From Sulfuritalea hydrogenivorans sk43H (GTDB lineage: Bacteria > Pseudomonadota > Gammaproteobacteria > Burkholderiales > Rhodocyclaceae), in assembly GCF_000828635.1 (NCBI RefSeq), contig NZ_AP012547.1, forward strand, positions 1,984,001-2,048,000: a stretch of DNA of 64,000 nucleotides, read 5' to 3'. The position numbers were made by a program, and so were the translations under genes. This document shows, in pieces, positions 2,174 to 21,585 of this stretch; the first letter of the stretch is position 1, and every line of letters starts with the position of its first letter. The notes below the pieces were generated by a model, which saw nothing but the letters and a program-made list of their open reading frames with translations, was not told the origin of the DNA and did not search any database.

Positions 2174-2245
2174 CTTGGTGCCTCCAAAAATATTGCGGGC
2201 ACCCTCCTCCCCTACCGGGACGAAGAGTCGCCCCGCGGGGTGGAT
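2174..2245 (-). promoter_or_regulatory. Intercistronic leader of radC (two-hairpin type)
   Basis: On the transcript, a self-complementary CCCCGCGGGG (2230-2239) is followed by a perfect 6-bp stem, GGTGCC/GGCACC (2198-2203 with 2177-2182). Its 3' arm contains the first part of the Shine-Dalgarno (complement of 2181-2185). It is one of about 14 leaders of the same plan in this element. Confidence 0.6.
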
Positions 2246-2260
2246 ATGAATGGGTAAGAT

Positions 2261-3058
2261 CTACTGAACTACGTCCATCTGAATGGCAGGCTTTCCGGCT
2301 TCGAGGATCTTCTGGCTTGCGCTGAAAATCCGCTGCGCCGACTTCTCAGGCAATTCATCGCCATCGAGCCAGGACTGGATGTAGCCTCGCGACTCATCGC
2401 GTCCGGGCAGTTCGAGGATGGAACACAGCAGGAAGGCCACGCCCTCCGCCTCGACCTCCTGAATACTTCTCGGGATCGTCGCGGCGTCATGGCAATCGCC
2501 TTCTTCGGTATGGCCAAGCACCACATGCGCCATTTCGTGAAACCGGGTCTTGTGCGGATACTCGGCAATCGGACTCACGGAAATTCGCCGTTTGACCGCA
2601 TAGCCCTGCACATTCCCGTCCATGAGTTCGAATGGCTCCTGTGAGATACCGAGTTCCATCAAGGCAGCTTCGGCATTCCACTGGGGCGACTCGATGGCTT
2701 CGACGTAGTCCTCGCCTTCGGTCTGATCCAGGCTGAACCAGCGTGGTGCCAGCCTGAATAGCGTCAGCAACCGACTGCTTTCTTCCATCGATCCGTCGTC
2801 GGACTCCGATTCACGGCGCTTGACCGTGATCGGCATCCAGAGCGACAACGCCTTCTGGCCCTTGGTGACGGAGCGTCCCAGTTCCTTCCATCGGAGGAAA
2901 CTGGCGATCGGCGCCATGGGGAGCTCGCGCTCTTGCAACTGAATGGCTGCCAGAATCTGGTTGCCGATGCTGAAGCGATGGAACCGGCCATAAGCGGCAC
3001 TGACGATTCCGGGCTCCGAGAGCGCCTGCGTGAGCAGGGGTGCAAACTTGTCATGCAT
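2261..3058 (-). CDS. ArdC-like antirestriction / IrrE-type zincin protein
   Basis: 265 aa from the ATG at 3058, chosen because GGAGGC precedes it by a few bases; the open frame extends further upstream without support. The N-terminal half (YGRFHRFSIGNQILAAIQLQ, FLRWKELGRSVTKGQKALSL) matches the ssDNA-binding ArdC N-domain. The C-terminal half has HEMAHVVLGH, an HExxH zinc-peptidase site, and a downstream EVEAEGVAFL glutamate helix typical of M78/IrrE-like zincins. ArdC proteins of conjugative plasmids protect incoming single-stranded DNA or block restriction, which fits an element that also carries hsdM. Function is inferred from family. Confidence 0.8.
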   Translation of the reverse strand: MHDKFAPLLTQALSEPGIVSAAYGRFHRFSIGNQILAAIQLQERELPMAPIASFLRWKELGRSVTKGQKALSLWMPITVKRRESESDDGSMEESSRLLTLFRLAPRWFSLDQTEGEDYVEAIESPQWNAEAALMELGISQEPFELMDGNVQGYAVKRRISVSPIAEYPHKTRFHEMAHVVLGHTEEGDCHDAATIPRSIQEVEAEGVAFLLCSILELPGRDESRGYIQSWLDGDELPEKSAQRIFSASQKILEAGKPAIQMDVVQ

Positions 3059-3135
3059 GATGCCTCCAAAGAAAAATGGGGAGGCACCGTCCCCGTTGGG
3101 GAGCAATGCGTTCCCCGTGGGATGAAATTTCCGGT
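3059..3135 (-). promoter_or_regulatory. Intercistronic leader of the ArdC-like gene
   Basis: A perfect 7-bp stem pairs TGCCTCC with GGAGGCA (3080-3086 with 3061-3067 on the plus strand), loop 12 bases, AT-rich. On the mRNA the 3' arm is the Shine-Dalgarno itself, so the site would be hidden when folded. A GC-rich CCCC...GGGG hairpin lies just upstream (around 3091-3119). Confidence 0.65.
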
Positions 3136-3180
3136 CGAAGCCGGATGACTGATGGAAAGTCCGATGGACTTCCGGTTCTG

Positions 3181-3444
3181 CTACTTCCTTCTTGCAGACC
3201 ACACCGACAGGGCAAACTCTTTGGCCTCGACTGCATGCGGCCCAAGGAATTCGCTGGGCTTGCCTTCGATCTTGATGAAGAGTCGCCTTCCGACCACGGC
3301 AATGTGCTGACGCGCACCGCAATCGGAGTCGAAGCGCGTGCGCAGGAATTGCCGATAATCGCCTTGCCATCCTGCCGGCGGAGCAAATGCGCCCTGCCCG
3401 CCCGGCATGGTGTCGATCAGACTGAAATCGATAACGCCGTACAT
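3181..3444 (-). CDS. Hypothetical protein, 87 aa
   Basis: The ATG at 3444 has AGGAG eight bases upstream and lies 10 bases after the primase stop, so it is probably translated from the same message. The protein begins MYGVIDFSLIDTMPGG and ends in a basic VWSARRK tail. No domain, signal peptide or membrane segment is evident. It is followed after 122 bases by the ArdC-like gene. No function can be assigned; position suggests an accessory role in element replication or establishment. Confidence 0.6.
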   Translation of the reverse strand: MYGVIDFSLIDTMPGGQGAFAPPAGWQGDYRQFLRTRFDSDCGARQHIAVVGRRLFIKIEGKPSEFLGPHAVEAKEFALSVWSARRK

Positions 3445-3454
3445 GAGCGTTCTC

Positions 3455-4519
3455 CTAGGCGGCTTGATGCAGCGCTTGCTCCACGCTGACCAAGGCAGGA
3501 AATCCCGCTTTGCCCTCAAGAACGAACACGTCCAGCCAGTCGATTCCCTTCTTGCCTTCGGGGATATCTATGGCCGGTGCAATGGCGCCGGCACGGATAC
3601 CCAGGGACCACAGCCGTTTGACCAGCTCACGCGCCGCTTCCTGCCCGTGTCCAGACGGATGTTGGCGTGAGGGCCGGTCCTTGTCGGCAAAGACCAGAAT
3701 CTGGTCAATGCCGGCCGGTGGCTGGAACGTCGCCAGCAGATGCGCGTTACCAGTGGCCCAGGCGGGAATGCCCGTGGCCTCGGTGACGGCAAGTGCCGTC
3801 TCGATCCCTTCGGTGACTGCCAGGCGATGATTCGCCGGCACCAGTCGAATAGCGCCCCCGGTCATTTGACGCGCCAAGGGATGGCGCATCAGCTTCTTGG
3901 GGGAATCGACCGGCGCCTTGCGGCCCTCGGGGGTGAGATAGGTTCGGTGGATGGTGACTGCATCGCCACCTTGCCCCGTCACTTGCGCAATCAGGGTCGG
4001 GTAATCAGCAAGTCGCCGGTTGTCCTCGTAGTATCCGAGTGCTGCATGAAACCGCAGCGTCTCAGGCACCTTGACCGACAGACCGCGACGAGCCAAATAT
4101 AACCGTGCCGGCTCGGCGCTCGGATGGGACAAGGCCACAGACTCCCGCCAGGTGCGATTCAGCTGCTCCCGACGCATCTCATCCTCGGATTTATCCGCCG
4201 CCGAATTGGCACTGCGCGACCGGCTGCCGACCTGTTCCGCCACTTCGCGGATCGTCCGGCCAAAATCCCAGCCATTGATCCACATCAGCAGCGCAAACCC
4301 GTTGGCAAAACTGCCGCAGGTATTGCAAATGCCTCCCCCCGTATCGGCGACATCCCGAAACAGGCGAAAGCCATCCCGACCGCCGTGAACCGGACAAGGC
4401 ACATGCTTGCCTGTCCGTTCCAGCGCGGCTTTTAGCGGTGGCGCGAGAGCAAGCAGAACCCGCTCCCAGCGACCTCGCGCATCTTCCTTTACTTGCTGCG
4501 TCTCGTACTCGTGCTTCAT
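3455..4519 (-). CDS. Toprim-domain DNA primase with N-terminal zinc finger (P4 alpha-like)
   Basis: 354 aa. Near the N terminus CPVHGG...CNTC is a CHC2/P4-primase-type zinc-binding motif that contacts template ssDNA. The C-terminal half is a Toprim domain: LAVTEGIETALAV carries the catalytic glutamate, QILVFADKDR the DxD pair. No helicase domain is fused, so it would act with a separate helicase. The start at 4519 (MKHEYE) follows GGAGGC by 8 bases; an in-frame ATG 15 bases further upstream lies before that site and is unlikely. It opens a unit with the 87-aa protein, the ArdC-like gene and radC, and its long leader carries the pseudoknot-like motif. Confidence 0.85.
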   Translation of the reverse strand: MKHEYETQQVKEDARGRWERVLLALAPPLKAALERTGKHVPCPVHGGRDGFRLFRDVADTGGGICNTCGSFANGFALLMWINGWDFGRTIREVAEQVGSRSRSANSAADKSEDEMRREQLNRTWRESVALSHPSAEPARLYLARRGLSVKVPETLRFHAALGYYEDNRRLADYPTLIAQVTGQGGDAVTIHRTYLTPEGRKAPVDSPKKLMRHPLARQMTGGAIRLVPANHRLAVTEGIETALAVTEATGIPAWATGNAHLLATFQPPAGIDQILVFADKDRPSRQHPSGHGQEAARELVKRLWSLGIRAGAIAPAIDIPEGKKGIDWLDVFVLEGKAGFPALVSVEQALHQAA

Positions 4520-4610
4520 TGTCGATGCCTCCATGTAACAACTCCGTGTGGAAATCTCCGCGCGGCATGGAGCGATCCCGTCCGGGAATGGCTCCCCGGC
4601 GGGGTTGATG
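4520..4610 (-). promoter_or_regulatory. Leader of the primase gene with SD-pairing stem
   Basis: CTCCATG (4529-4535) pairs perfectly with CATGGAG (4566-4572); on the mRNA the 3' arm is part of CATGGAGGCA, the Shine-Dalgarno region. A GC-rich CCCGTCCGGGA/CCCCGGCGGGG segment lies further upstream. The gap from 4520 to 4945 (426 bases) holds no gene: it contains this leader, the pseudoknot motif, the terminator of the preceding unit and one copy of the long inverted-repeat element. Confidence 0.55.
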
Positions 4611-4643
4611 AATGCTGTTTGTTTTCTCGTGGCCAGCTACCAC
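4611..4643 (-). repeat. Pseudoknot-like hairpin motif, copy 1 of 4
   Basis: The plus strand reads AATGCTGTTTGTTTT, a short spacer, then stem GTGG, loop CCAGCTA, stem CCAC. GCTG of the flank can pair with CAGC of the loop, giving an H-type pseudoknot. The other three copies keep loop and flank but change the stem to GCGG/CCGC or GAAGG/CCTTC. It lies at the head of the primase unit. Confidence 0.65.
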
Positions 4644-4731
4644 ACGTCCGTCCAATGCCTTACGGCGTCAGACTGAATCCCATGTTCAGGCTTTGCACAG
4701 CAGGCTCGAATTGCGCATCGAACCTGTTCTG

Positions 4732-4763
4732 AAAAACCCCGGCGCACAGAACGTGCGCGCCGG
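4732..4763 (-). terminator. Rho-independent terminator after the methylase-helicase unit
   Basis: On the minus strand a GC-rich stem (CCCGGCGC..AC / GTGCGCCGGGG, with a small bulge) is followed by GTTTTTC. It lies between the stop of the 1666-aa gene and the leader of the primase unit, so it marks a transcription-unit boundary. Confidence 0.65.
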
Positions 4764-4823
4764 GTAAGAGGAAACAGGAGGGAGGAAACTGGATGCGATG
4801 CTACGTACCGGTTCGCCCTCTCG

Positions 4824-4858
4824 GATTTTGAAATGCGCCCTTTTTGTCTCGACTTCGA
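4824..4858. repeat. Long inverted-repeat element, copy 1 of 3 (second arm degraded)
   Basis: GATTTTGAAATGCGCCCTTT at 4824-4843 is identical or nearly so to the first arm and loop of the copies at 21685 and 24754. The second arm (CTCGACTTCGA) is only partly conserved. It lies upstream of the primase unit, in the same intergenic gap as a terminator. Confidence 0.5.
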
Positions 4859-4945
4859 CCGTCCGTTAAACCGGTTCCATGCAGTGCAAGTCAGGTATGT
4901 CCGCCGTCACCCAGTCAGGCAAAACGAAACACCCTCACAACACCT

Positions 4946-7900: not shown

Positions 7901-9946
7901 CGCTTTCAAGGCATCCACATTGCGAACAAAATCTCCGCCCGCTGCTTCTGCCATTTCCAGCTTGCTGCGCACGTTCCCGGCCAGGTAAGCATCCGCGGTT
8001 TCCCATTGCGATGTTTCCGGATTCAGGAAGATCAGACCGCGATCCGCCATGTCCGGGAGAAACGCCGATGACGCCTGCCCAAGCAGGGATGCCATCAACA
8101 CAACATCCACACATCCGCGCTCATGCAGCGACACCAACAGGGCCTCTTCCGGCGTATTGCAGCGGTCGACCTTGCGGACGACCCCCACGGTCCGACGGAA
8201 GAACACATCGGCCTTTTCCGCTACGCCGCCCTCCGGATCGTAATTCTCCAGAGACAACAGCAATGGCAGGTCGGGGTCTCCCTTGAACGCCAGCTTGTTG
8301 GCCTTGGCATGCAGATAGCCATGCCGCGCCACAAAGCCGTCATAGGCCATGTTGAGCATCATGCGGTAACTGCCAAGACGGCTATCGTCATCCGTGAGAT
8401 GCTGGACATGCAGCAACTTCCTCGCCGCATCACGAATCGCCATCATGCCGACGATGCGCTTGGCAGCCGTTGCCGATACCATTCCCTCGATGACCAGCAG
8501 CTCCTGGCCTTCCGAGACAGCCAAACGGCCATCGTCGGTGAGGCAGAATGCGCCCGGCTTCACGAACTCCGGCGCTGCGACACGAATGTCGCGCTGCGGC
8601 TTGCCACTGGGCTCGGAATTTCTCGCCGCCCGGGGGTGATAAACGCCCTCTGGCAAACGCGCAATCCGTTCCCGTAAAGCAGTGCCGATATCGCCATCGA
8701 AAATGGCAGCATTCGACAAGCCATAGCCATTCGACTTCTGTCCCATGCGCCCGATCAGCATCTCCGGGTTCTGGACATACCAGTTCGAGACATACAAACG
8801 GCGGTAGCCGTCACACATCGCATAGGGCGCTTCGACCACGTTAATCCAATCGTCAGCGGCCTTTTCGCCTGCCCCCAACTTCTGGAGAAAGACGATATCG
8901 GTCGTGACGTCGGTATTGGCGATCTGCGAAAACGTCCCGGACGGCAGACGTATCGCCCCCAGCAGCCTTGCCTGGGAGGCCATATGGCGCCGCGCCCGAT
9001 CTTCCCACTTGTCCAACGTTCCGGCCGACGTGATGAACGCCACCAGACCACCAGGACGGGTCACTTCCAGGGCACGCCCGAAGAAGTAGTCGTGGATCAG
9101 GAAGTTTGCATAAGGCACGTTCCGATCGTCCGGCACCTGATAGTTCCCGAAAGGAACATTCGAGATCACCAGATCGAACCAGTCTTTGGGCAATCGCGCC
9201 TTCTCGAAGCCCACCGTCAAGGTACGAACCCCGTGTTGCCCATACAGGCGCGACAGCATCCGCGACGACAGACGGTCGATTTCGATGGCCGTGATCTCCG
9301 AGACTTCGGCCAGATCCTTTGGCATGGCACCGATGAAATACCCGGTACCCGCCGAGGGATCGAGGACGCGACCGCCCCGAAAACCGAGTCGGCGTACTGC
9401 TTCCCAGATCGCATCGATCACGAAAACTGCCGTGTAATGGGCATTGACCACACTCCCCTTGGCGCTCGTGTAATCCTCGCCCAACAGATCCGGCAATGAC
9501 TCGGCTCTCGCCCGCCACGCTGGATCGTCCTGCTCAGGATTGAACGCTTTGGGAAGCCCGCCCCATCCGGTATATCGATTGAGGATGGATCGCTCTTCGT
9601 CAGTCGGGAATCGTTTTTCGGCATCCAGCAACGACAACACTGCGATCGCCGCCAGATTCGCCTCGAACTTCCCGACATCCCCACGCAACATCGCATGCAG
9701 GGAGCTATCCAGCACGGGCCATACCGCGCGAAGCGGCTTGGGTGCCGTAACATCGGCAGCCACCTCGACAACCCGTTCTGCGATGTCGCCCGAACTTCCC
9801 TCATCGATGACCGGTACGGCGTCATGTACTTCGTTGACCAAGGGAAAGGCGATGATTTCTGCCGTACATCTTGCCTCCGGTAATGGATCGTCGGGGGCAA
9901 ATCCGGGAAGCCACATCGTGACCTCCGCAAGTTTCTTGAGTTTCAT
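4946..9946 (-). CDS. N6-adenine DNA methyltransferase fused to SNF2-type DEAD/DEAH helicase (DarB-like)
   Basis: 1666 aa from the ATG at 9946, chosen for its AGGAG 8 bases upstream. Around residues 195-205 DPSAGTGYFIGAMP is the SAM-binding motif I of a gamma-class methylase; around 263-267 NVPFG stands where NPPF/DPPY catalytic motifs are found. A helicase follows: Walker A HVVGAGKT near 870-877, DEAH in DFLFIDEAHYF near 1030, and motif VI in EQREGRIIRQGN near 1365. This methylase-helicase fusion recurs on phages (P1 DarB) and conjugative elements, where it is linked to protection or anti-defence. It is the long second gene block of a unit with two hypothetical genes upstream. Exact function is inferred. 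Confidence 0.85.
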   Translation of the reverse strand: MKLKKLAEVTMWLPGFAPDDPLPEARCTAEIIAFPLVNEVHDAVPVIDEGSSGDIAERVVEVAADVTAPKPLRAVWPVLDSSLHAMLRGDVGKFEANLAAIAVLSLLDAEKRFPTDEERSILNRYTGWGGLPKAFNPEQDDPAWRARAESLPDLLGEDYTSAKGSVVNAHYTAVFVIDAIWEAVRRLGFRGGRVLDPSAGTGYFIGAMPKDLAEVSEITAIEIDRLSSRMLSRLYGQHGVRTLTVGFEKARLPKDWFDLVISNVPFGNYQVPDDRNVPYANFLIHDYFFGRALEVTRPGGLVAFITSAGTLDKWEDRARRHMASQARLLGAIRLPSGTFSQIANTDVTTDIVFLQKLGAGEKAADDWINVVEAPYAMCDGYRRLYVSNWYVQNPEMLIGRMGQKSNGYGLSNAAIFDGDIGTALRERIARLPEGVYHPRAARNSEPSGKPQRDIRVAAPEFVKPGAFCLTDDGRLAVSEGQELLVIEGMVSATAAKRIVGMMAIRDAARKLLHVQHLTDDDSRLGSYRMMLNMAYDGFVARHGYLHAKANKLAFKGDPDLPLLLSLENYDPEGGVAEKADVFFRRTVGVVRKVDRCNTPEEALLVSLHERGCVDVVLMASLLGQASSAFLPDMADRGLIFLNPETSQWETADAYLAGNVRSKLEMAEAAGGDFVRNVDALKAVVPADLGPGEIDARIGSTWIPARDYAEFLDQLLECEGCTVEFCAEAGAWNIDVPWQGERSVASTQTFGTGRISAGELFVVTLNQMVPTIRDRDPVTDRYFVNTEETIAAREKQQALKEAFGAWVFADANRCERLVRLYNDQFNSVRLREFDGSGLALPGFSEVFNLHRHQKDAIWRIVSGGVNTLLAHVVGAGKTLTMICGGMELRRLGMASKPCYVVPNHMLEQFAAEFLRAYPGANILMASKDDLVGDKRRTLLSRIATGDWDGVLITHASFERIKMSDEAMTTFIEARVYEIECAIRASKSQKRGNRIVKELERAKKSWLARLEKLAAKSKKDDMLTFEELGVDFLFIDEAHYFKNLYRFTKMTRVAGLPNANSERAFDMFVKTRHVMEKHDGRSGVVFATGTPVSNSMAEMWTMQRYLQPATLRGNHVAQFDTWAGNFGESVTALELSPDGGGYRMNTRFARFVNLPELMTMFREVADIRTADMLKLPVPRFHLETVTAKPTAALKAFVATLVERAEVIRNGNVSPNEDNMLAVTNDGRKAALDMRLVVPREPEAPDGKVSLCAERIHGIWRDTTAFRGTQAVFCDLSTPTDDGRFSVYHVIRAKLVEMGVPGTEIAFIHDFESDTAKAELFKAVREGRIRVLLGSTLKMGVGTNIQTRLAALHHLDAPWRPSDVEQREGRIIRQGNLNEEVRIVRYVTEASFDAYIWQTLETKARFIAQVMRGDTGMRSAEDVELAALSYAEVKALASGNPLVMEKAGIDAEVAKLSLLKSQWDNQRWSNQRESATLPGRIEKLRQRIEAIEADIADRVDVRGQRFCMVLDGQRYVDRTEAGNALVRYYVDAKARTRKIGNWKTSTGEIVVGQFAGFDLAVSIPTAAADGPSFLLKKRRAYVAHHSDNPIGMVRVIENVANALESKLAEVHEDLARAEKRLADILAEISKPFDKEDRLTQLLVRQREINASLDLDKGNAGAMEAETEVA

Positions 9947-10020
9947 GCGGTTCTCCTGAAAAGCCGGAGACACGCTCCCCCTCCGGGGTGTGTCCCCGGA
10001 AGGGTTGAGAAACTTCGGTG
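9947..10020 (-). promoter_or_regulatory. Intercistronic leader of the methylase-helicase gene
   Basis: TCTCC (9951-9955 on the plus strand) pairs with GGAGA upstream, a 5-bp stem whose 3' arm on the mRNA overlaps the AGGAG ribosome site. A CCGGGGACACACCCCGG-type GC hairpin lies upstream (around 9976-9997). Same plan as the other leaders, with a shorter SD stem. Confidence 0.45.
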
Positions 10021-10078
10021 GGTCGGATGTCGAAGGCGCTAGCCCTGACAACCGACCGGGTGATACAAAGACGACTGC

Positions 10079-10654
10079 CTACATTTCGCCCCGCCCGCCG
10101 ACTTCGATCTTTCGCCACAGGGACTTGGAATCGCTCAGCCAGTGGTAGCGAATGAATGCCGACAGGTCGGCGTCATCGTCGATGGAAAGGATGAAGCGCT
10201 CGATGCTGTCCCCGCTGCCGTTGAGAGCCAGACCGGTCCGGTTTTCGCGAAACTTGGCCAGGCAGTCGGCGTCGTATCTATCACGCATCTTCTGCGTGTC
10301 GATATCGATGCAGAGCGAGACCCGGATACCCCGGTTTCTGGCTTCATCCAATGAGACGGCATCCGCCAACACCCGCCGCAGGCGAGCGATATAGGCTTCC
10401 GGCTTCATCCAGCGACCGTGAGGCTTGAGCGACCCACCTTCGCAGGCAGCGGCAAACTCCACTGCGGTTTGCATGACCTGCCAGGACATGCCCATGGCCA
10501 TGCAGGACCACCGACGAGGACGCTTGCCATCCTGCCGATAGACATTGTTGTCACCACCCAGCGAAGCCAGAATGAAATGGTCTTCGTAGGCAGATTCGAT
10601 GCGTTCCTTGGGCAGACGAATTGCCACCCAGTCATACTCGATGCGATACGACAT
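10079..10654 (-). CDS. Hypothetical protein of the element, 191 aa
   Basis: The start at 10654 (MSYRIEYDWVAIRLP) is supported by GGAGGC just upstream and by the conserved leader; the open frame runs further upstream without a ribosome site. The protein is soluble-looking with no signal peptide, zinc motif or nucleotide-binding loop. Features seen: GGDNNVYRQDGKRPRRWSC near residue 35 and an acidic ILSIDDDADLSAF near the C terminus. It sits between a 119-aa hypothetical and the methylase-helicase in one unit, so a role with that enzyme is possible. I do not recognise the family. Confidence 0.6.
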   Translation of the reverse strand: MSYRIEYDWVAIRLPKERIESAYEDHFILASLGGDNNVYRQDGKRPRRWSCMAMGMSWQVMQTAVEFAAACEGGSLKPHGRWMKPEAYIARLRRVLADAVSLDEARNRGIRVSLCIDIDTQKMRDRYDADCLAKFRENRTGLALNGSGDSIERFILSIDDDADLSAFIRYHWLSDSKSLWRKIEVGGRGEM

Positions 10655-10725
10655 GTGATGCCTCCAGAATTGAATGCCGGAGACACCTTCCCGTCCGGGC
10701 GATGTCCCCGGACGGGTGATGGCCG
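10655..10725 (-). promoter_or_regulatory. Intercistronic leader with perfect 10-bp hairpin and SD stem
   Basis: The clearest leader. CCCGTCCGGG (10690-10699) and CCCGGACGGG (10707-10716) form a perfect 10-bp stem. Downstream on the mRNA, TGTCTCCGG (10685-10677) pairs with CTGGAGGCA (10667-10659) over 9 bp if G-U pairs are allowed, hiding GGAGG. The two wobble positions are G-U only on the minus strand, which fits an RNA function there. Confidence 0.7.
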
Positions 10726-10740
10726 TGAGGCCGAATGGAT

Positions 10741-11100: not shown

Positions 11101-11156
11101 GACCATCCCCTTGCCACGCGAATCGCTTCCCGCAACATGTGTACGAACTGCTTCAT
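11097..11156 (-). CDS. Small ORF of 19 codons, coupled to the next gene
   Basis: MKQFVHMLREAIRVARGWS, ending TGA inside the start codons of the 119-aa gene. It has the strongest ribosome site in this region (GGAGGCACC before ATG) and is the one served by the conserved leader. The peptide could form an amphipathic basic helix. It may be a coupling peptide that opens translation of the following gene, or a functional micro-protein. That it is translated is inferred from the SD and the ATGA overlap. Confidence 0.45.
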   Translation of the reverse strand: MKQFVHMLREAIRVARGWS

Positions 11157-11215
11157 GGTGCCTCCAGAAAAAAAAGGGAGGCAGCGACCCTGTCGGGAGC
11201 GAGCCCCCACAGGGT
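11157..11215 (-). promoter_or_regulatory. Leader of the 19-codon ORF unit
   Basis: TGCCTCC (11159-11165) and GGAGGCA (11177-11183) form a perfect 7-bp stem with an A-rich (U-rich in RNA) loop; the mRNA 3' arm is the Shine-Dalgarno. A CCCTGT...ACAGGG pairing (around 11189-11216) forms the upstream hairpin. Confidence 0.65.
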
Positions 11216-11220
11216 TGAGA

Positions 11221-12811: not shown

Positions 12812-13548
12812 CACGCGTCTCCTTCCAGCACGGCGGCCTCAAAAGCTTGCCGTAGCGTCCAACCCGTCGGAACGAGCGTGCGCGTAGGAAAGCGAGTCAA
12901 GCGACCATCCAGCAGATCCCGCCACAAGGCAAACGGACCGGCCCGGTAACGGGTCAGCCCCCGTGGGGTATGGATATTCGGATGCGTGAAGTAGGACCGG
13001 AAGAAGGCTTCCTCCCAGGCCAGGTGGTTGTGTACCTGATCGCCTTTCGGCAAGCGGGCACTGCCGACACAGATGGTGCCGTTTTGCCAGACATTGAAGA
13101 ATGGCGCGACGGACAGTGGTGTGTCGGCATCAGGACGTTGCCGCCCCTTGAACGCAAACACCTTCCATGCCTTCGTGGTCACCACGAACACCAGTCCCGG
13201 ACAGGGAACCCGAGCAGTTCGCGCACCGAGTTCCTTGCAGTCGAACCAGACCTGCCTGTCCTGCGGAGCCCTGTACCAGACGAAGAAACCCGATCCTTCC
13301 GCGAGCACATGCGCCGGCTTGATGGCCGGCTTGAGCATCGCTTCCGGATCGAGAATGCGCATCAGCGCCATGAGCCCCGCCTTGCTGGCCGGAACCCCTG
13401 CTTGAATCACCGGACGATTGCCATCGTCGGAACCCACGTCATGAATCGACACGAACGCCGGCTTGCGCTGCGCATCCTGATAGACCAAGACGGCATGAGT
13501 CAGCCGGTACGACTGTTCGCTGGAAAACGTACTGACATTGATCGCCAT
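12811..13548 (-). CDS. PRTRC system protein B (prokaryotic E2-like family D)
   Basis: 245 aa. Start at 13548 is set by GGAGG six bases upstream; the frame is open further upstream without support. Long beta-rich N-terminal half (LTHAVLVYQD, FFVWYRAPQDRQVWF), then FFNVWQNGTICVGSARLP, where C160 sits at the place expected for an E2-like active-site cysteine after an Asn/Trp strand. The family is classed with bacterial E2-like proteins. It would accept the activated modifier from ThiF. The next gene, protein A, overlaps by one base. Confidence 0.82.
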   Translation of the reverse strand: MAINVSTFSSEQSYRLTHAVLVYQDAQRKPAFVSIHDVGSDDGNRPVIQAGVPASKAGLMALMRILDPEAMLKPAIKPAHVLAEGSGFFVWYRAPQDRQVWFDCKELGARTARVPCPGLVFVVTTKAWKVFAFKGRQRPDADTPLSVAPFFNVWQNGTICVGSARLPKGDQVHNHLAWEEAFFRSYFTHPNIHTPRGLTRYRAGPFALWRDLLDGRLTRFPTRTLVPTGWTLRQAFEAAVLEGDA

Positions 13549-13610
13549 CGCGACCTCCTTAATGAAATGGTGCAGGCGTGTCGAGCCCGGCGGGCAGGAC
13601 ATCACCCGCA
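13549..13610 (-). promoter_or_regulatory. Leader of PRTRC B (weak two-hairpin type)
   Basis: The spacer between protein F and protein B keeps the GC-rich segment (CCCGGTGCGGG with CCCGCCGGGC) and the GGAGG close to the ATG, but the SD-pairing stem is poor here. It is the least convincing member of the leader family. Confidence 0.35.
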
Positions 13611-13625
13611 CCGGGTTAATGGAAC

Positions 13626-14812: not shown

Positions 14813-14815
14813 GGC

Positions 14816-15202: not shown

Positions 15203-15212
15203 GACGCCCTCC

Positions 15213-15623
15213 TCATGCGAAAAGGTTGTCTTCGACCGGAACGTCGGCGGCTGCCGGTGTCTCGGTCTCATCATCATCGTCATCAGCTGGCGCCGCTACC
15301 TTGGCCGTGCCTTTCCTGAGTGCGCCTTCCGCTTTCTTGCTGGCGTCCTTTTTGGCTGCCTCAAGAATGTTGCGGGTGGCTTCCAGTTGCTCGGCCAGCG
15401 ATTGATGCTCATCGGCAAAGCTGCGAAGCAAGCCGACGAATTGCGCATCCAGCTCCTCCGCCGTTCCGGTCAGAACCAGCGGGATCGCCAACGCCTCGGC
15501 ATCCTTGGCATCCTTCGGGGTGGGTCGCACCGTGACGGTGATCAAGCCTTCCCGTGCCGATGACAAGGTGACCGCCAGTGCTGCGCAGCCGTCCAACAAC
15601 GATTTCAGTTCCTGAAAAAACAT
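15213..15623 (-). CDS. PRTRC system protein E
   Basis: 136 aa starting MFFQELKSLLDGCAAL at 15623; GGAGG lies 8 bases upstream. The first 85 residues hold the conserved beta/helical domain of the family (ITVTVRPTPKDAKDAEAL, PLVLTGTAEELDAQF). The tail is Lys/Ala-rich and then strongly acidic (DDDDDETETP), ending VEDNLFA. Function is unknown in the literature I recall. It lies between ParB and protein C in one transcription unit. The charged tail suggests a flexible partner-binding region. Confidence 0.82.
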   Translation of the reverse strand: MFFQELKSLLDGCAALAVTLSSAREGLITVTVRPTPKDAKDAEALAIPLVLTGTAEELDAQFVGLLRSFADEHQSLAEQLEATRNILEAAKKDASKKAEGALRKGTAKVAAPADDDDDETETPAAADVPVEDNLFA

Positions 15624-15695
15624 GGTGGTACCTCCAAAGAGAAAATTGCAGGCGCACCACGCCCCGTGCGGGGAACGTGGTCCCCGCATGGGTGG
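15624..15695 (-). promoter_or_regulatory. Intercistronic leader of PRTRC E
   Basis: On the mRNA GGTGcgCCT pairs with AGGtaCCACC across a small internal loop, hiding GGAGG; the 12-base loop is U-rich. Upstream, CCCCGCACGGGG-type complementarity (15661-15694) forms the GC hairpin. The spacer is 84 bases between the stop of parB and the start of E. Confidence 0.55.
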
Positions 15696-15707
15696 AAAGA
15701 AACTGTC

Positions 15708-17387
15708 TTACGCGATGGTGAAGCGCATCGACCGCGGCACCTTGCCCTCGTAGGGGAAAGCCGCCACGTTCAACAGCGCCTTGACGATGTCGTCCTTCTT
15801 GCCGCTCATGGCCTTGGCAAATGCTCCGCCCATGGCGACCTTCAAGCCGATCTCGTCGCACATCGCCTCGATTTCGCTCTTGGTGAGCAGCTTGAGAAAC
15901 TCTTCGCAGAGCTTCCAGTGCCGCCCGAGATCGATCTCGAGATAGGTGAGGATCTGGACCAGGGTCTTCTCCTCGATACCGTCTGCCGCCGATGCCGCCA
16001 GTCCGAGAAACAGCTTGTCCCGAACGGCTTCATCCGACTGCGCTACCAGGCGTGCCGCCTCGTCCGCCTTGAACACGAAGCTGGTGAATTCCTGCTTGGT
16101 GATCGCGGCGAATGCCTTGCCCAGCTTGGTATCGCTGATATGGCGGGCATTGCCTGATAACGCAAGAGCGATGAGTACCGTGAGATTGTTGTCACGATTG
16201 CCCATCAACTCCCGACGCAGCGCCTTGCGCCAGACTTCCAGCCGGTAGTCCTTGACCCGTTGCGAGTCCTGAACCTTGGCCTCCGACTTGGCTTCGGCCT
16301 TGCCGGATGACTTGGCAGGGGTTGCCGACTTGCCTGACGCTGTCTTCGCAGAACCCTCCGCCGGCGTTGCCTTGTCCTTTTCCAGCTTGATACGCGCTGC
16401 CACCTTCTTGGCATTGCAGCTCGCATCGAAGCACAGGTCGGGATAGACGTTGCCGAGCTTGCCCGGCACGGCCGAGATCGCGGCACCGAAGTTCTTGCAG
16501 GCGCGGCAGGCTTTCGCCTGTTCCTCGCCCACCCCGGTATCGCCCTCCGCCAGCAGTCGCAGGAGCGTGAAGTTCTCGCCGGGTCGGACGATCCGAATGG
16601 TCGGATAGTCGTCGGCCAGCGATGCCTTCTTTGCGTCCAGCGACGCCTCGGTCTTGCCATCGAAACACGCCCCGTGGGTGCAGTGTCCGGCGGCAATCGC
16701 CTCGCCAAAGAGCGCCTGCTGATTCCCCGAGTTATGGGTACACGACGTGCACTCGCCCTTGTCGAAGATGGCGCTGCTCAAAGCCCGTGAGATCTGCTCA
16801 AGTTGCCCGCGAAACTGGGCGACCGTCGGCAAACTGGCCTGTGACAGCAACTTCTCCAACACGGCATCCTGCCTGTCGCGGGTGACCGCAGCCAACAACT
16901 CTGCGTGACCCAGCTGGATGCGCCGCTCGGACAAGGCCCGACGGACCCGTTCCGAACAGTTCATCAGCGCCAGGCGCTTGTCGAGCGTGGTCCGCGACCA
17001 GCCCAGACGACGCGAGGCCTCGTCCCGATCCCCCTGACAGCGGCCAAGAATCTTGGCTGCCGCTTCGGCTTCTTCGGTCGGACTCATGTCGGCACGCTGG
17101 ATGTTTTCGATCAGCGCCGCCTCGTCGGCTTCGCCATCGTCCAGGTCGCGCACCAGGGCCGGGATTTCATACTCGTCCCCGAACACCTTCTTTGCCGCGC
17201 GCCAGCGACGTTCGCCGGCGACGATCTCGTAACGCCCCGCATCGCGGGGACGAACGAGGATCGCCTGCAGCACGCCCTTGGATTTCACGGAATCTTCCAA
17301 CGCCGTCATTTCCGAGGGATCGAAGTAGCCTCGGGGATTGCGGCCGGGAAGGATGTTTCCGACCTTGATTGATGCTTGCAGTTGCAT
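15708..17387 (-). CDS. parB: PRTRC system ParB family protein
   Basis: 559 aa from the ATG at 17387 (GGAGGC just upstream). The N-terminal ParB/Srx domain has GRYEIVAGERRWRAAKKVFG, the CTP-binding GERR motif, and ALIENIQRADMSP. A helix-turn-helix region follows (EASRRLGWSRTTLDKRLALM). The middle has cysteine clusters (CTSCTHN, CTHGACFD, CRACKNF, CFDASC) that could bind zinc. An Ala/Lys/Ser linker near residue 405 precedes a helical C-terminal domain. ParB proteins bind centromere-like sites and slide on DNA; here the linked ATPase is not seen in the window. It heads the cassette. Confidence 0.87.
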   Translation of the reverse strand: MQLQASIKVGNILPGRNPRGYFDPSEMTALEDSVKSKGVLQAILVRPRDAGRYEIVAGERRWRAAKKVFGDEYEIPALVRDLDDGEADEAALIENIQRADMSPTEEAEAAAKILGRCQGDRDEASRRLGWSRTTLDKRLALMNCSERVRRALSERRIQLGHAELLAAVTRDRQDAVLEKLLSQASLPTVAQFRGQLEQISRALSSAIFDKGECTSCTHNSGNQQALFGEAIAAGHCTHGACFDGKTEASLDAKKASLADDYPTIRIVRPGENFTLLRLLAEGDTGVGEEQAKACRACKNFGAAISAVPGKLGNVYPDLCFDASCNAKKVAARIKLEKDKATPAEGSAKTASGKSATPAKSSGKAEAKSEAKVQDSQRVKDYRLEVWRKALRRELMGNRDNNLTVLIALALSGNARHISDTKLGKAFAAITKQEFTSFVFKADEAARLVAQSDEAVRDKLFLGLAASAADGIEEKTLVQILTYLEIDLGRHWKLCEEFLKLLTKSEIEAMCDEIGLKVAMGGAFAKAMSGKKDDIVKALLNVAAFPYEGKVPRSMRFTIA

Positions 17388-17455
17388 GATGCCTCCAATG
17401 AAAAATGGCAGGCAGCCGCATCCCCGGACGGGAATGCAACTGTCCCGCCAGGGGT
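17388..17455 (-). promoter_or_regulatory. Intercistronic leader of parB
   Basis: TGCCTCC (17390-17396) pairs with GGCAGGCA (17407-17414) with a single bulged base, so the mRNA 3' arm contains the Shine-Dalgarno; loop AT-rich. An upstream GC segment (CCCCGGACGGGA, GTCCCGCCAGGGG) forms the second hairpin. Confidence 0.6.
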
Positions 17456-17466
17456 GAAATGAATCG

Positions 17467-17808: not shown

Positions 17809-17822
17809 GTGAATTGCCTGCG

Positions 17823-18035: not shown

Positions 18036-19129
18036 TTGCCCTCTTCCCCGAAAATGTCATTTGCCGAGGAAGCAGAATTGGCCAACGCCGTCTTGCGGTT
18101 ACGGTAGGCACGCAGCACCTGCTCCAACTCGGTGCCCTCGAACGAGCCTTCGGCCCGGATATAGACTTCATCCAGTTCGTCGGTCGTTGCCGCCCGGCCG
18201 ATGATGGCCAGGGTGTCCTGCAGCATCTTGCCGGAGGCTTGACGCTCAGTGCCTTGGGTCGGTTCGACCTTGCCAGGCTTGTTCCCCTTGTCACCGTTCT
18301 CGGCCGTGGTTGGAATGACTTCTCCCGTTTCCTCGTCGATGATCGGCGCCCATGAACCTTCAATGGCTTCGGTGATTCCGATGTTCTGGTTCTCACCACG
18401 CTCGGTCACTTCATCGAGCGCCAGCGCCATCGCCAGTTCCGGAGACTTGGGCAACAAATTGCACAGCCGGCGAATCACGGTCTTTAGGCCCATGGGGACG
18501 AAATGCGTATCCCACGGACTTTCCTTGCCGTACTTCTTGGCCATCTGATAGCCCCGCGAGTTGTCGCGCACCTGTTCGATTTGTTCTTTCGACAGGGCGT
18601 GAAACGTGCGGGTACCATCCTTGAACACCGCGACAGCGTAGAACCCCACGATCATTCCCCGCTCCTCATCGGAGGCAGGGAAGCCGTTCTTCTTCAACGG
18701 TTCGTGCATCAGGGTCCGGTTAAGGCCCAGGACGATGTCGAACTTGTCGTTGATGCGAACTTCGTGACCATAGATGTCCTGCACGATGCCACTGTTGCGC
18801 GCCAGTTTCATGAGCCCCTGATAGCCGGGAATCAACTGGCACTGATTGCCGAAGGGCACCAGGTGCGCTTCACCCATCAATCCGACTTCGAGACCGAGCT
18901 GGCTGGACTGGATCACCGCCGCAAAAACACTGCGGGGATCCGTCTGGGCCAGCTTTGGGTTCATGCGAAACGCGGTCAGGGCAATGCGCACCATGCGATC
19001 CGGACTCAGGTGCTTGGGCAGTGCGCGGGCAATTTCGCCTTTGAACTGTTCCAGCATGGCCGGGAACGGCACCACGTTGGACTGCACACCTTGGCGGGAC
19101 TTCTGGATGTTGCGTAGGGTTTGAGACAT
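18032..19129 (-). CDS. recT: RecT family single-strand annealing protein
   Basis: 365 aa from the ATG at 19129 (GGAGA upstream). The core VVPFPAMLEQFKGEIARALP, MVRIALTAFRMNPKLAQTDP, VFAAVIQSSQLGLEVGLMGE, PFGNQCQLIPGYQGLMKLAR is characteristic of RecT. RecT coats single-stranded DNA and anneals complementary strands, working with the upstream nuclease. The C-terminal 100 residues are less conserved and acidic. With the RecE-like nuclease and SSB it makes a lambda-type recombination module, as found on phages and ICEs (for example SXT), that can reshuffle elements or repair them. Confidence 0.9.
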   Translation of the reverse strand: MSQTLRNIQKSRQGVQSNVVPFPAMLEQFKGEIARALPKHLSPDRMVRIALTAFRMNPKLAQTDPRSVFAAVIQSSQLGLEVGLMGEAHLVPFGNQCQLIPGYQGLMKLARNSGIVQDIYGHEVRINDKFDIVLGLNRTLMHEPLKKNGFPASDEERGMIVGFYAVAVFKDGTRTFHALSKEQIEQVRDNSRGYQMAKKYGKESPWDTHFVPMGLKTVIRRLCNLLPKSPELAMALALDEVTERGENQNIGITEAIEGSWAPIIDEETGEVIPTTAENGDKGNKPGKVEPTQGTERQASGKMLQDTLAIIGRAATTDELDEVYIRAEGSFEGTELEQVLRAYRNRKTALANSASSANDIFGEEGK

Positions 19130-19200
19130 GGTTTTCTCCAAAGAAAAATGGCGAAGACACCTGTCTCCCTTGACGGGGATGGGTATCCCCGCCGGGGTTG
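19130..19200 (-). promoter_or_regulatory. Intercistronic leader of recT
   Basis: CGGGGAT and ATCCCCG form a perfect 7-bp stem with loop ACCC (mRNA; plus-strand 19178-19195). Downstream TCTTC pairs with GGAGA, which is the ribosome site of recT. Same two-hairpin plan as the other leaders. Confidence 0.55.
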
Positions 19201-19225
19201 ATGACCTACATAGAAAAGCCGCGGA

Positions 19226-20059
19226 TTAAGCGGCGTCCAGCTCGAAGGCTTCTGTGTTGGCTGCCCAGCGTGGCAGGGAGATCAGTTCGATCTCTCCACC
19301 CGGTTGGTACGCCGGCCAGTTGCCCGATGCCTGGCACCACCTCAAGAGCTGAAGTGCCGCCCGGTATTTCTTGCGCCCGATCTCGATCACGTCGGGATCG
19401 GCGCGATAGACCGCGACCGCATGCGGTGCCTCTTTCTCCACAGCGACAAACAGGAACGGAAGCTCCATTCCGGTCACGGCCTTGATCCCGTCGACGTAGA
19501 ACGCCGCCTGGATGTCGTAGCCAAAATTCGCCATGGAACGAGAGAACCCGCCACTGCTGGCATCGATGCAGGTCTTGAGATCAACGATGGCTTCACCGTT
19601 GAACCAGTCCGGCCGACACTTGCAGTTGAGGCCGGTTTCCGTATCCGTCCAGAACGCCGAGAGTTCGGCATCACCGGAGGAAAGAAGCCTTGAAGCTCCC
19701 TGATGGGCAAACACGGCCCGTTGAACCAGGGTGAGCGTGGCCATCTCCTCAGAGGTAATCACGATCTTGCCGTGATTGGCCTCCTCAAAACGTGCCGCCG
19801 CTTCTTTGCCTTCCTTGGTGCGACGGTCGAATTTCTCCGCCACCACGAATTCCTCGGCAAAGCGATCCTGCTCCAGCACATAGGTATGCACTGCGGTTCC
19901 GAACGCCATGGCAGGCGTCGGTTCATGCGGATGATCCAGATACTCGCGCAGGTGAGCCGGGCTTTTGAGCATCTTGACGATACCCGAATGGCCGATGGCT
20001 TTCTCCGCGTGATACTGCGTGGCCGGCATGACAAGCAGGCCGGGATGATTGAGTTTCAT
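19226..20059 (-). CDS. RecE-like PD-(D/E)XK exonuclease (DUF3799 type)
   Basis: 277 aa, start at 20059 with GGAGGCATC before ATG. KCRPDWFNGEAIVDLKT gives D151, D160 and K162 of the PD-(D/E)XK nuclease core; FGTAVHTYVLE (53-63) is the upstream helix typical of this family. It should degrade one strand of a double-strand end and hand the 3' tail to RecT, whose gene is next (97 bases downstream). It is the first gene of a long unit running through recT, parB and the PRTRC genes to ThiF. Confidence 0.87.
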   Translation of the reverse strand: MKLNHPGLLVMPATQYHAEKAIGHSGIVKMLKSPAHLREYLDHPHEPTPAMAFGTAVHTYVLEQDRFAEEFVVAEKFDRRTKEGKEAAARFEEANHGKIVITSEEMATLTLVQRAVFAHQGASRLLSSGDAELSAFWTDTETGLNCKCRPDWFNGEAIVDLKTCIDASSGGFSRSMANFGYDIQAAFYVDGIKAVTGMELPFLFVAVEKEAPHAVAVYRADPDVIEIGRKKYRAALQLLRWCQASGNWPAYQPGGEIELISLPRWAANTEAFELDAA

Positions 20060-20115
20060 GATGCCTCCAGAGTGAATGCCGGAAGCACCGACCCGAACCG
20101 GGGCGTTGTCCCCGG
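20060..20115 (-). promoter_or_regulatory. Leader of the RecE-like gene
   Basis: CCGGGG (20098-20103) and CCCCGG (20110-20115) form a 6-bp stem. TGCCTCCAG (20062-20070) pairs with CCGGAAGCA (20079-20087) when G-U pairs on the minus strand are allowed, hiding GGAGG. Confidence 0.6.
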
Positions 20116-20126
20116 CAGGGTTGGAA

Positions 20127-20158
20127 AATGCTGTTTGTTTCGCGCGGCCAGCTACCGC
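20127..20158 (-). repeat. Pseudoknot-like hairpin motif, copy 3 of 4
   Basis: Flank AATGCTGTTTGTTT (20127-20140), stem GCGG (20144-20147), loop CCAGCTA, stem CCGC (20155-20158). It stands at the head of the long recombination-PRTRC unit. Confidence 0.65.
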
Positions 20159-20234
20159 TTTTTAATCGAACAGATAACCGTCCGATCAAATCTGGCTTTC
20201 CGCAGGACGCTCGGCGGGAACGCCCTCGGGAAAG

Positions 20235-20250
20235 CCCCGGAGGTCCGGGG
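20235..20250 (-). terminator. Hairpin terminator after the ssb unit
   Basis: CCCCGGA and TCCGGGG form a perfect 7-bp stem with a 2-base loop, followed on the minus strand by GCTTTCC-like sequence. It lies 8 bases after the stop of the 53-aa gene. Confidence 0.5.
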
Positions 20251-20258
20251 CGATGGGA

Positions 20259-20420
20259 TCATTCGATTGTTCCGGCTTTGCGCGCCATGTCGAGTGCCTT
20301 CAACAACATGTCGCGGGTTTCCATGTCCCGCTTGCCTTCCCTCAGCCGTTGATAGAGATCGCAGGCAAAGGCCATGGGCAGCGGGTCGAACAGACGAACG
20401 AGATAGGGATTGAGTTTCAT
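20259..20420 (-). CDS. Small hypothetical protein, 53 aa
   Basis: Starts MKLNPYLVRLFDPLPMAFAC at 20420 with GGAGA 7 bases upstream; ends DMARKAGTIE. The peptide is helical and basic in the second half (RLREGKRDMETRDMLLKAL). It is the last gene of the ssb unit and is followed by a terminator. No family recognised; existence is supported by the ribosome site and operon position. Confidence 0.5.
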   Translation of the reverse strand: MKLNPYLVRLFDPLPMAFACDLYQRLREGKRDMETRDMLLKALDMARKAGTIE

Positions 20421-20479
20421 GATTTTCTCCAGAGGTTGTTGAGATACCCTGGCGAAAACCGCATCCAAGATGGAGCGAT

Positions 20480-20527
20480 CCCCGCAGGACAAAGGGCTCT
20501 TCGAGAAAAGCGCTTTGTGCTGCGGGG
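20480..20527. promoter_or_regulatory. Extended hairpin in the leader of the 53-aa gene
   Basis: CCCCGCAG (20480-20487) pairs with CTGCGGGG (20520-20527), with an inner ACAAAG/CTTTGT pairing. This 133-base spacer is longer than the usual 75-95 bases; a short CTCCA/TGGAG pairing (20427-20431 with 20471-20475) could cover the ribosome site. Confidence 0.45.
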
Positions 20528-20553
20528 AAGACCCCCACAGGCAATACTGCGAA

Positions 20554-20631
20554 TTACAGACCGAGCGCGTGAACGATCGGACGGCTGATGATCCAGCCAG
20601 AAATGCAGCATGCGAGAAGAACGAGTTCCAT
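20554..20631 (-). CDS. Small hydrophobic peptide, 25 aa
   Basis: MELVLLACCISGWIISRPIV then HALGL. It has AGGAGG before the ATG at 20631 and a leader of the conserved type, which is why I call it although it is tiny. The whole peptide could span the membrane once. It sits between a 90-aa membrane protein and the 53-aa gene in the ssb unit. Function unknown; it could be a regulator of the neighbouring membrane protein. Confidence 0.45.
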   Translation of the reverse strand: MELVLLACCISGWIISRPIVHALGL

Positions 20632-20700
20632 TAGATGCCTCCTGAAGTAAAAAAAGGGGGCACCCCTCCCCTTGCGGAGGCGATGCCCCCGCTGGGGTTG
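20632..20700 (-). promoter_or_regulatory. Leader of the 25-aa membrane peptide gene
   Basis: TGCCCCC pairs imperfectly (one mismatch) with GGAGGCA across a U-rich loop; an upstream CCCC...GGGG segment (20670-20697) forms the GC hairpin. The spacer is 74 bases. Confidence 0.45.
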
Positions 20701-20705
20701 AAACT

Positions 20706-20978
20706 TCAGGCGATGACTTCGAAGGAAGCCTTTGCCGTGTTGCCGGAATCGTTGCCGATTCCGTTCCGACGCAGATACGCCGGTACCTCGTACTGCCGCC
20801 AATCCGTTACCGGTTCCTCGGCGGGTACATCATCTACTTCAGCCACCACCTCCTCGACCTTGGCATGGAGGGGAACACGCAGGAATGAGCCACGAATGGC
20901 TTCCAGCGCAAACCGAAGAAACGAAAGGATCAGATGCAGCCCTGCCAGCATGGCCAGGACAAGAATGACGCGCTCCAT
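20706..20978 (-). CDS. Small membrane-anchored protein, 90 aa
   Basis: Starts MERVILVLAMLAGLHLILSF at 20978 with GGAGG 7 bases upstream. Residues 3-27 form one membrane segment, followed by a basic turn (AIRGSFLRVPLHAK), an acidic stretch (VEEVVAEVDDVPAEEP) and a polar C terminus (YLRRNGIGNDSGNTAK). The bulk should be cytoplasmic or periplasmic depending on orientation. It lies directly after ssb. No known family; context gives no clear role. Confidence 0.55.
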   Translation of the reverse strand: MERVILVLAMLAGLHLILSFLRFALEAIRGSFLRVPLHAKVEEVVAEVDDVPAEEPVTDWRQYEVPAYLRRNGIGNDSGNTAKASFEVIA

Positions 20979-21045
20979 GAACAAACCTCCAAAAGTGATG
21001 GAGGCCTGTCCCCCAAGGGAGGAAGACCTCCCGGTGGGGAAACAA
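20979..21045 (-). promoter_or_regulatory. Leader of the 90-aa membrane protein gene
   Basis: CCTCC (20986-20990) and GGAGG (21000-21004) form a 5-bp stem, extendable by G-U; on the mRNA the 3' arm is the ribosome site. Upstream GC-rich pairing (CCCCCAAGGGAGG region) forms the other hairpin. The spacer is 79 bases. Confidence 0.5.
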
Positions 21046-21057
21046 GAAACGTGCGAC

Positions 21058-21510
21058 TCAGAACGGCTCGATGTCGGGTACATCCTCGAATGCCGGTCCC
21101 GAAGCGGCTGCAGGCTTGCCTTTACCGTTGCCGGTACGCTTGCCTTTGCCTGCATCGGGCGCATCGTCATCCGCTGGACGAGTGCCGAGCATCTTCATCT
21201 CGCTGGCGAGAATCTCGACGACATAGCGATCCTGACCCTCTTTGTCCTGCCATTTGCGGGTCTGGATGCGACCTTCGACGTAGACGGGCGAGCCCTTCTT
21301 CAGGTACTCGCCGACGACCTCCGCCGTGCGACCAAAAAAGACGACACGGTGCCACTCGGTGATTTCCTTCTTTTCACCGGACGACTTGTCCTTGTACGTC
21401 TCCGTCGTTGCGATCCGAATCGTTGCGATCGCTTCGCGGTTCTGCGTGTAACGAACCTCAGGGTCGGCACCCAAGTTGCCGATGAGGGTGACTCTGTTTA
21501 GTGATGCCAT
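21058..21510 (-). CDS. ssb: Single-stranded DNA-binding protein
   Basis: 150 aa. OB-fold core [60 protein letters not shown] is typical of bacterial SSB. A Gly/Lys/Pro-rich linker leads to the acidic tip [10 protein letters not shown], which recruits replication and repair partners. Being on the element, it probably supports single-strand DNA intermediates of transfer, replication and RecT annealing, in parallel with the chromosomal ssb. It is the first gene of its unit and is preceded by the long leader with the pseudoknot motif. Confidence 0.95.
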
Positions 21511-21585
21511 GACTACCTCCTGACAAAAGTTGAAATTGGCAGGAAGGCCGTCATTACCTGACGGGGTATCCCCGCCGGGGTTAGT
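21511..21585 (-). promoter_or_regulatory. Leader of ssb
   Basis: CCGTCA and TGACGG form a perfect 6-bp stem (plus-strand 21549-21565). Downstream CCTTCCT on the mRNA can pair with AGGAGG before the ssb start, with one G-U and one mismatch. Further upstream CCCCGGCGGGG is self-complementary. Confidence 0.5.

Follow-up and report, generated by a model that had tools for sequence, protein, structure and literature searches.

The stretch analyzed here, a window of 64 kb in total (G000:C1:1984001-2048000, from the 3.8-Mb single-contig genome of Sulfuritalea hydrogenivorans sk43H), carries an element in which 14 gene starts on the minus strand (2171-21585) are preceded by a GC-rich hairpin (A:B) and then by a second hairpin (C:D) involving the Shine-Dalgarno sequence (SD). 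These leaders belong to a real and widespread family with three competing, co-evolving helices, since the anti-SD strand C also complements A, an SD mimic formed by the 5' half of hairpin 1. Support for this architecture is good: computation establishes the family, its three-way co-variation, the RNA strand for A:C and C:D, and its distribution. We consider it probable that this is a family of mRNA leaders before maintenance-block genes whose two exclusive folds, with A imitating D, set the translation of each gene. The minus-strand block concerned (1574-21510) codes for RadC, an ArdC-N protein, a primase, a large SNF2/methyltransferase-like protein, the PRTRC cassette (ThiF, A, B, F, C, E and ParB), RecT, a DUF3799 protein and SSB.

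Covariation of three helices

Segment A comprises CCC..GGGG and the loop of hairpin 1, B is the 3' arm of that hairpin, C is the anti-SD strand, typically GGTGYCTCC, with its flank, and D runs from the SD to the start codon. The first hint of A:C came from 150 aligned leaders, in which the loop of hairpin 1 was complementary to the 5' half of the anti-SD strand. In the main set the four segments were cut by profile columns, without folding, and the own segments of each leader were compared with segments dealt from other leaders. This set was drawn from the window together with 40 stretches in 33 other genomes, where 299 matches gave 270 parsed leaders and 103 representatives at 70% identity. 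Own partners paired better than permuted partners for A:B (z = -11.3), A:C (z = -18.5) and C:D (z = -12.7), each with 0 of 3,000 permutations reaching the observed value, and non-partner controls were flat (B:C -0.3, A:D -0.1, B:D 0.7). Inside one SD class A:C still reached z = -9.7. A held-out set (343 matches, 314 parsed, 24 leaders each at most 75% identical to any earlier leader) gave -4.0 for A:B, -7.7 for A:C and -7.1 for C:D, with controls of 0.4 to 1.4. An IncC-type set of 26 representatives, taken from the plasmids pP0855 and pVPS43, gave -9.5, -9.9 and -8.8 in the same order (controls -0.5 to -1.7), the A:B and C:D values being favored there because starts were chosen on folds and A and B were cut by fold; A:C played no part in choosing or cutting. 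In each of the three sets the strongest own-partner signal was that of A:C.

A reading of the window made earlier from its letters alone (hereafter the sequence-only reading) had described a two-hairpin leader whose stems differ in sequence yet stay paired. The second half of that description is borne out by the permutations; of the first, both hairpins are present, but there are three competing helices and A:C had been missed. By eye, too, the partners in orthologous leaders stay paired although the sequence changes in distant leaders of one gene, as in the radC leader of locus L107 (A CCCTATCGGGGACACATC, B CCCGATAGGG, C CTTGTGTCCCCTTTTTT, D AAGGAGACACAAAATG). Functionless repeats, kept alike by duplication or recombination, would account for the consensus common to the leaders (UUUUCAA, CCC, GGGG, GGTG, GGAG). 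This explanation is hardly credible, given that leaders within one element differ, that distant leaders of one gene diverge with their partners still paired, and that own-partner pairing exceeded shuffled pairing in every set.

The A:C helix has a mean of 12.5 pairs, and about 8.5 of the C bases that form it pair D in the rival fold. In 43 of 88 representatives its pairs reach past the C:D helix. If the leaders were two plain hairpins, the first stabilizing or spacing the mRNA and the second dampening or coupling translation, A:C would be a by-product. The fold energies agree with such a layout in that 81 of 93 representatives have A:B + C:D as their lower fold, but a by-product should not give the strongest signal in three sets, persist within one SD class and exceed the C:D helix so often, and we regard it as unlikely.

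Folding and proposed mechanism

Fold energies were obtained with either A:C or both A:B and C:D penalized (299 matches, 277 parsed, 93 representatives). A:C was the lower fold in the remaining 12 representatives, and in the window in the leaders of recT, PRTRC parB and PRTRC B. Unpaired SD bases amounted to 11% in the A:B + C:D fold versus 54% in the A:C fold. Leaders as a whole fold more stably than dinucleotide shuffles (mean -35.1 versus -22.6 kcal/mol; 138 representatives, standing for 289 leaders in the window and in relatives), and the predicted probability that the SD is unpaired is 0.12 in these representatives versus 0.23 in shuffles.

The proposed switch would work as follows. Fold 1 (A:B + C:D) tends to hide the SD, fold 2 (A:C) would draw C off it, and the two are mutually exclusive; as A imitates D, C would choose between a decoy and the real SD. 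Transcription yields A first, then B, C and D, so hairpin 1 would be the first to form. Among the five A-pairing C bases nearest the 5' end, a mean of 3.4 face the loop of hairpin 1, which makes the loop a possible foothold for invasion by C. A pseudoknot over an intact hairpin 1 was dropped by geometric reasoning, as a linker of 2 nt is hardly long enough to cross a stem of 10 bp. The emerging SD would then compete for C, and the choice of fold would set translation. A bound ribosome may block C from the SD and leave it to pair with A, so that a gene once started would be held open. We infer that the leaders control expression and that the switch is in use, with 'off' as its probable default. 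For the trigger, coupling of ribosome and RNA polymerase or a structure-reading factor seems to fit better than one small RNA, given that the leaders of one element differ in sequence and a single base-pairing RNA for all copies is therefore unlikely. As regards a riboswitch, UUUUCAA 5' of hairpin 1 is the only unpaired stretch noted as conserved. It stands right before CCC, in the 14 nt 5' of hairpin 1, with C at 72%, A at 69%, A at 85% and G almost absent (85 representatives).

A U-tract often follows A:C in betaproteobacterial-type elements, and A:C may therefore also end transcription there. A transcription attenuator could even come first, with A:C and its U-tract as intrinsic terminator, A:B as antiterminator and C:D acting on read-through RNA only. 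At least four T stand in the next 8 nt after A:C in 69 of 88 representatives (at least five in 62), compared with a mean of 1.9 T in the 8 nt after hairpin 1. The layout of an intrinsic terminator with antiterminator (a GC stem, a direct T-run and a rival stem) is thus found in those 69. In 14 long-spacer leaders the position of the T-run is fixed by the end of A:C and not by the SD, and 128 of 277 leaders start 0-29 nt past the upstream stop, a usual place for a terminator. Nevertheless, most IncC-type leaders keep A:C and lack the T-run and thus the terminator layout; T tracts after A:C are weak in several window leaders; and in 10 of the 88 representatives the predicted A:C helix reaches the SD and the T tract was not read there. 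We hold this order of functions possible but lean against it. As the IncC-type leaders mostly do without the T-run, the SD switch would be the function shared by all, to which one lineage would have added termination.

Several results weigh against an SD switch. The sequence-only reading had the SD hidden: for 7 of 13 window leaders the predicted probability of its being unpaired is about 0.00 and for the other six 0.17-0.48, and five of those six (5 of the 13) hide it no better than shuffles. The A:C fold frees the SD only about half. The IncC-type set was chosen with knowledge of the folds, 40 starts being listed, 27 selected by eye after the folds had been seen and 26 kept after clustering. 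Covariation, the check proposed in the sequence-only reading, appears at segment level and not at column level: with a tree null, no pair among 224 sequences reached E < 0.05, and the best, a C:D pair (columns 46-68; C-G 85, T-A 76, T-G 32), had E = 0.32. Alignments by RNAalifold and MAFFT were uninformative because hairpin 1 shifts register. Finally, A:B has no strand preference, with 12 G-T versus 8.8 expected and 16 A-C versus 8.2.

That last point would fit a structure of single-stranded DNA used in transfer, such as a promoter of the Frpo kind, in place of an RNA device. The block genes include ssb and anti-restriction genes, which are typical of leading regions. In the other two helices, however, wobble pairs favor the mRNA strand. 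Own A:C helices exceed shuffles by 2.31 bp when G-U is allowed and by 0.86 bp when A-C is allowed instead; flanked G-T in A:C number 59 versus 30 expected and A-C 5 versus 7.6. C:D leans the same way (G-T 30 versus 15.9, A-C 21 versus 16.4). The SD and the start codon are moreover part of the structure, and matches sit at annotated starts, which makes the DNA explanation very improbable. An RNA-level device on the mRNA strand, as the sequence-only reading had proposed, agrees with these counts; its further claim that wobble pairs are useful on that strand only holds for A:C and, less, for C:D, and fails for A:B.

Going one step further, the leaders may form an RNA regulon, in which a compact SD-mimic switch is repeated before the maintenance-block genes of AcaB-type beta- and gammaproteobacterial plasmids and integrative and conjugative elements, including IncC, and answers one shared trigger, for example transfer or DNA damage. 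In such a regulon the copies would co-evolve independently, and the trigger would set translation and, where a U-tract exists, transcription. We put this forward tentatively, giving it somewhat less than even weight. A working switch would place bet/recT, exo, ssb and anti-restriction genes under shared post-transcriptional control besides their promoters, and protein levels would be mispredicted from transcript data alone. At many gene starts of this element and its relatives, including the intensively studied IncC plasmids, the SD-blocking strand can pair with either of two rivals, and this suggests a common on/off control that has been overlooked. The natural variants of this one three-strand circuit number in the hundreds and also offer a model for an anti-SD shared by a decoy and a real ribosome site.

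Leaders in the window

The leaders precede 14 of about 24 genes in the block by our count, fewer than the 'nearly every gene' of the sequence-only reading, which had also given the gaps as mostly 74-96 bases. From upstream stop to start codon, 8 of the 14 leaders do fall there (74, 77, 79, 79, 84, 86, 87 and 96 nt) and five have 122-426 nt; the ssb gap is outside this tally. From segment A through the start codon, window leaders are 61-73 nt long. All pairings that had been named are in place: the 10-bp stem 10690-10716 (CCCGTCCGGG/CCCGGACGGG), the SD stems 10659/10677, 11159/11177, 3061/3080 and 2177/2198, whose folding agrees with the description, and the stem 4529/4566 (CTCCATG/CATGGAG).

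All 14 are on the minus strand. The first to be met in the direction of transcription is the ssb leader (21508..21580; A 21566-21580, B 21556-21565, C 21533-21555, SD 21517-21520), followed by that of the open reading frame (ORF) 20978-20706 (20976..21039; A 21019-21039, B 21011-21018, C 20994-21010, SD 20987-20990). Next come the leader of a 25-codon ORF at 20631 (20629..20697; A 20677-20697, B 20669-20676, C 20650-20668, SD 20639-20642), with TTTTTTT after A:C, and that of the DUF3799 gene (20057..20120; A 20102-20120, B 20092-20101, C 20075-20091, SD 20065-20068). A:C is the more stable fold in the leaders of recT (19127..19197; A 19178-19197, B 19168-19177, C 19147-19167, SD 19136-19139), where ATTTTTCTT follows it, and PRTRC parB (17385..17453; A 17433-17453, B 17423-17432, C 17402-17422, SD 17393-17396), and slightly so in that of PRTRC B (13546..13615; A 13595-13615, B 13585-13594, C 13566-13584, SD 13555-13558). 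The PRTRC E leader lies at 15621..15692 (A 15673-15692, B 15663-15672, C 15642-15662, SD 15632-15635). Further along are the leaders of a 19-codon ORF at 11156 (11154..11214; A 11198-11214, B 11188-11197, C 11171-11187, SD 11162-11165), of ORF 10654-10079 (10652..10716; A 10700-10716, B 10690-10699, C 10673-10689, SD 10662-10665) and of the large SNF2/methyltransferase-like gene (9944..10004; A 9988-10004, B 9978-9987, C 9960-9977, SD 9953-9956). The primase gene has a weaker, atypical leader with an ambiguous start codon (4520..4610), and those of the ArdC-N gene (3056..3121; A 3101-3121, B 3091-3100, C 3074-3090, SD 3064-3067) and radC (2171..2240; A 2220-2240, B 2210-2219, C 2189-2209, SD 2182-2185) complete the row.

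In several loci a leader precedes an ORF of 25-26 codons (window 20631 (-), L084, L088, L090, L101 and L121), which is perhaps a real small protein. A box like AAACAAACAGCATT stands 5' of four window leaders after longer gaps (about 4610, 11230, 20140 and 21600, minus strand), and ACAAACAGCATT stands 5' of one leader in the IncC plasmid pP0855 (L191, upstream of 3969); the AAACAAACAGCATT-like box is perhaps a shared promoter or regulator site.

Divergent from the leader block is an AcaB-like gene (21776-22432, +), which accompanies the leaders in relatives. Its product is 51% identical over 168 aa to an AcaB-family-annotated protein of pSTJ2 and 32% over 184 aa to one of a Simplicispira plasmid; scans of the product with Pfam and NCBIfam were without a match. 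A tyrosine integrase gene lies at 25115-26344 and is adjoined by an S4-domain, Hsp15-like gene (24132-24512, -); a relative sharing this integrase neighborhood has it at 94% identity. The S4-domain gene was considered as a trans-acting factor and set aside, being Hsp15-like and seen outside the window only in two records of one relative. On its left side the block is bordered by a type I restriction-modification operon (L020 13569-19991, -) and a WYL-domain gene (window 402-1346, -).

Distribution among relatives

Profile R1 was built from 13 window leaders. Owing to the shifting register of hairpin 1, it holds just 6 base pairs and acts chiefly as a sequence profile; with this restriction a model built from the leaders, as the sequence-only reading had suggested, does find clustered relatives. 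In the window R1 recovers its 13 source leaders and the weaker fourteenth (4520-4610, E = 4.7e-4), and it has zero matches on the 100-kb left flank. Its 14 matches at E ≤ 1 in the own genome, where 150 of 906 first-look candidates were scored, are every one inside this block. Within the family 66 of 297 genomes have a match at E ≤ 0.001, and within the order 50 of 399 do. At E ≤ 1e-4 the class has 15 of 369 and the phylum 4 of 299; all four of the latter, the own genome among them, belong to the class. These tallies are lower bounds, as just 12 or 16 first-look candidates were scored per genome. The matches cluster, with 314 at E ≤ 0.05 across 42 sources. Carriers include Sulfuricystis multivorans pSTJ2, plasmids of Simplicispira suum and Delftia acidovorans, and contigs labeled Accumulibacter, Nitrotoga and Gallionella.

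With a nucleotide profile, 24 of 35 matches in the pSTJ2, Simplicispira and Delftia plasmids end at most 12 nt from an annotated start; a further 364 kb, made up of twelve other loci and of the window to the right of 22 kb, had no match at E ≤ 0.01. Three annotated starts in L183, at 18829 (cysteine protease), 30045 (radC) and 32672 (a hypothetical gene), either fall within a leader or precede one, and these genes may really begin just behind it. Among 74 non-redundant downstream proteins, the commonest Pfam families are ArdC-N (5), DUF3799 (4), SSB (4), DUF3577 (3) and RadC (3). The leaders are not element-wide, as had been supposed: all 14 matches of pSTJ2 lie in its recombination/maintenance block (13.9-35 kb of L183), and none adjoins transfer genes in L183 or L180 (99.9 of 102.6 kb examined). 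In the PRTRC gaps of Aromatoleum aromaticum EbN1 plasmid 1 (L021) we saw classical terminators (stem and T-run) followed by a separate SD-pairing stem of other sequence. That region has no match to the leader profile, and its layout is perhaps a convergent design.

Beyond these relatives the leaders also occur on IncC plasmids. AcaB-like genes match in 986 plasmid records, and in IncC pP0855 and Vibrio parahaemolyticus pVPS43 the genes beside the acaB-like gene carry the same leader plan in a different sequence, before bet, exo, DUF3150 and VWA in both and before ssb in pP0855. A Providencia plasmid with a distant AcaB had no such leaders by eye, and an Azotobacter plasmid had a single weak match (E = 0.013). 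As regards SXT/R391 elements, the IncC bet gene matches 87 Escherichia coli genomes with at least 80% coverage. A spread of 25 among the remaining E. coli matches consisted of short ones annotated bet, and four records were at 80-90% identity.

Comparison with known systems

The sequence-only reading knew no described family of this kind, and 4,227 Rfam families against window 1-24000 gave none at gathering score in the block; at E ≤ 10 there was one snoRNA-like chance match inside ssb (21143-21202). The radC RNA motif (RF01754) takes its name from radC, which has a leader here. Its 149-position model was above the cut-off in 0 of 61 genomes (the own genome, with 0 matches, and 60 relatives). 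Sub-threshold matches at E ≤ 1 occurred in 37 of the 61 genomes, which are GC-rich, and the ten inspected among twelve loci (L004 and eleven others) resemble chance. Known RNA families are thereby ruled out as the identity of the leaders. The STAXI motif shares the ssb and antirestriction neighborhood, being found near ssb, topoisomerase, antirestriction and integrase genes in the cited passages (PMC2864571); the window is without an Rfam match.

The acaB/bet-exo locus of IncC and related plasmids likewise has an AcaB-like gene beside ssb, bet/recT and exo, and the published descriptions, in the passages drawn on here, cover its genes and promoters and not such leaders (PMC11493245). We found no report of the leaders in the open-access literature, a scope that excludes most subscription papers. 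Work on bet/exo regulation in SXT may already have noticed part of the finding.

Another system for comparison is the intergenic repB-repC leader, found on repABC plasmids. It too can fold in alternative ways, the SD being single-stranded in one fold and an intrinsic terminator forming upstream of the ribosome site in another; as described in the cited passages, it is present in a single copy per replicon, switched by an antisense ctRNA (RepE/incA) and alphaproteobacterial (PMC3155836, PMC6090056). The elements described here have about ten or more leaders each, placed in front of different genes, and the IncC-type leaders are mostly without a terminator tract. No antisense RNA was seen, no search having been aimed at antisense promoters or transcripts, and the two are likened by description only.

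In erm-type translational attenuators, anti-SD and anti-anti-SD strands require a leader peptide and a drug-stalled ribosome. No leader peptide was noticed in the 75-nt unit, in which no systematic search for one was made. As in the erm-type attenuators, one segment would choose between the SD and an upstream strand. The leader appears to work like an attenuator, and it matched none of the known families tested.

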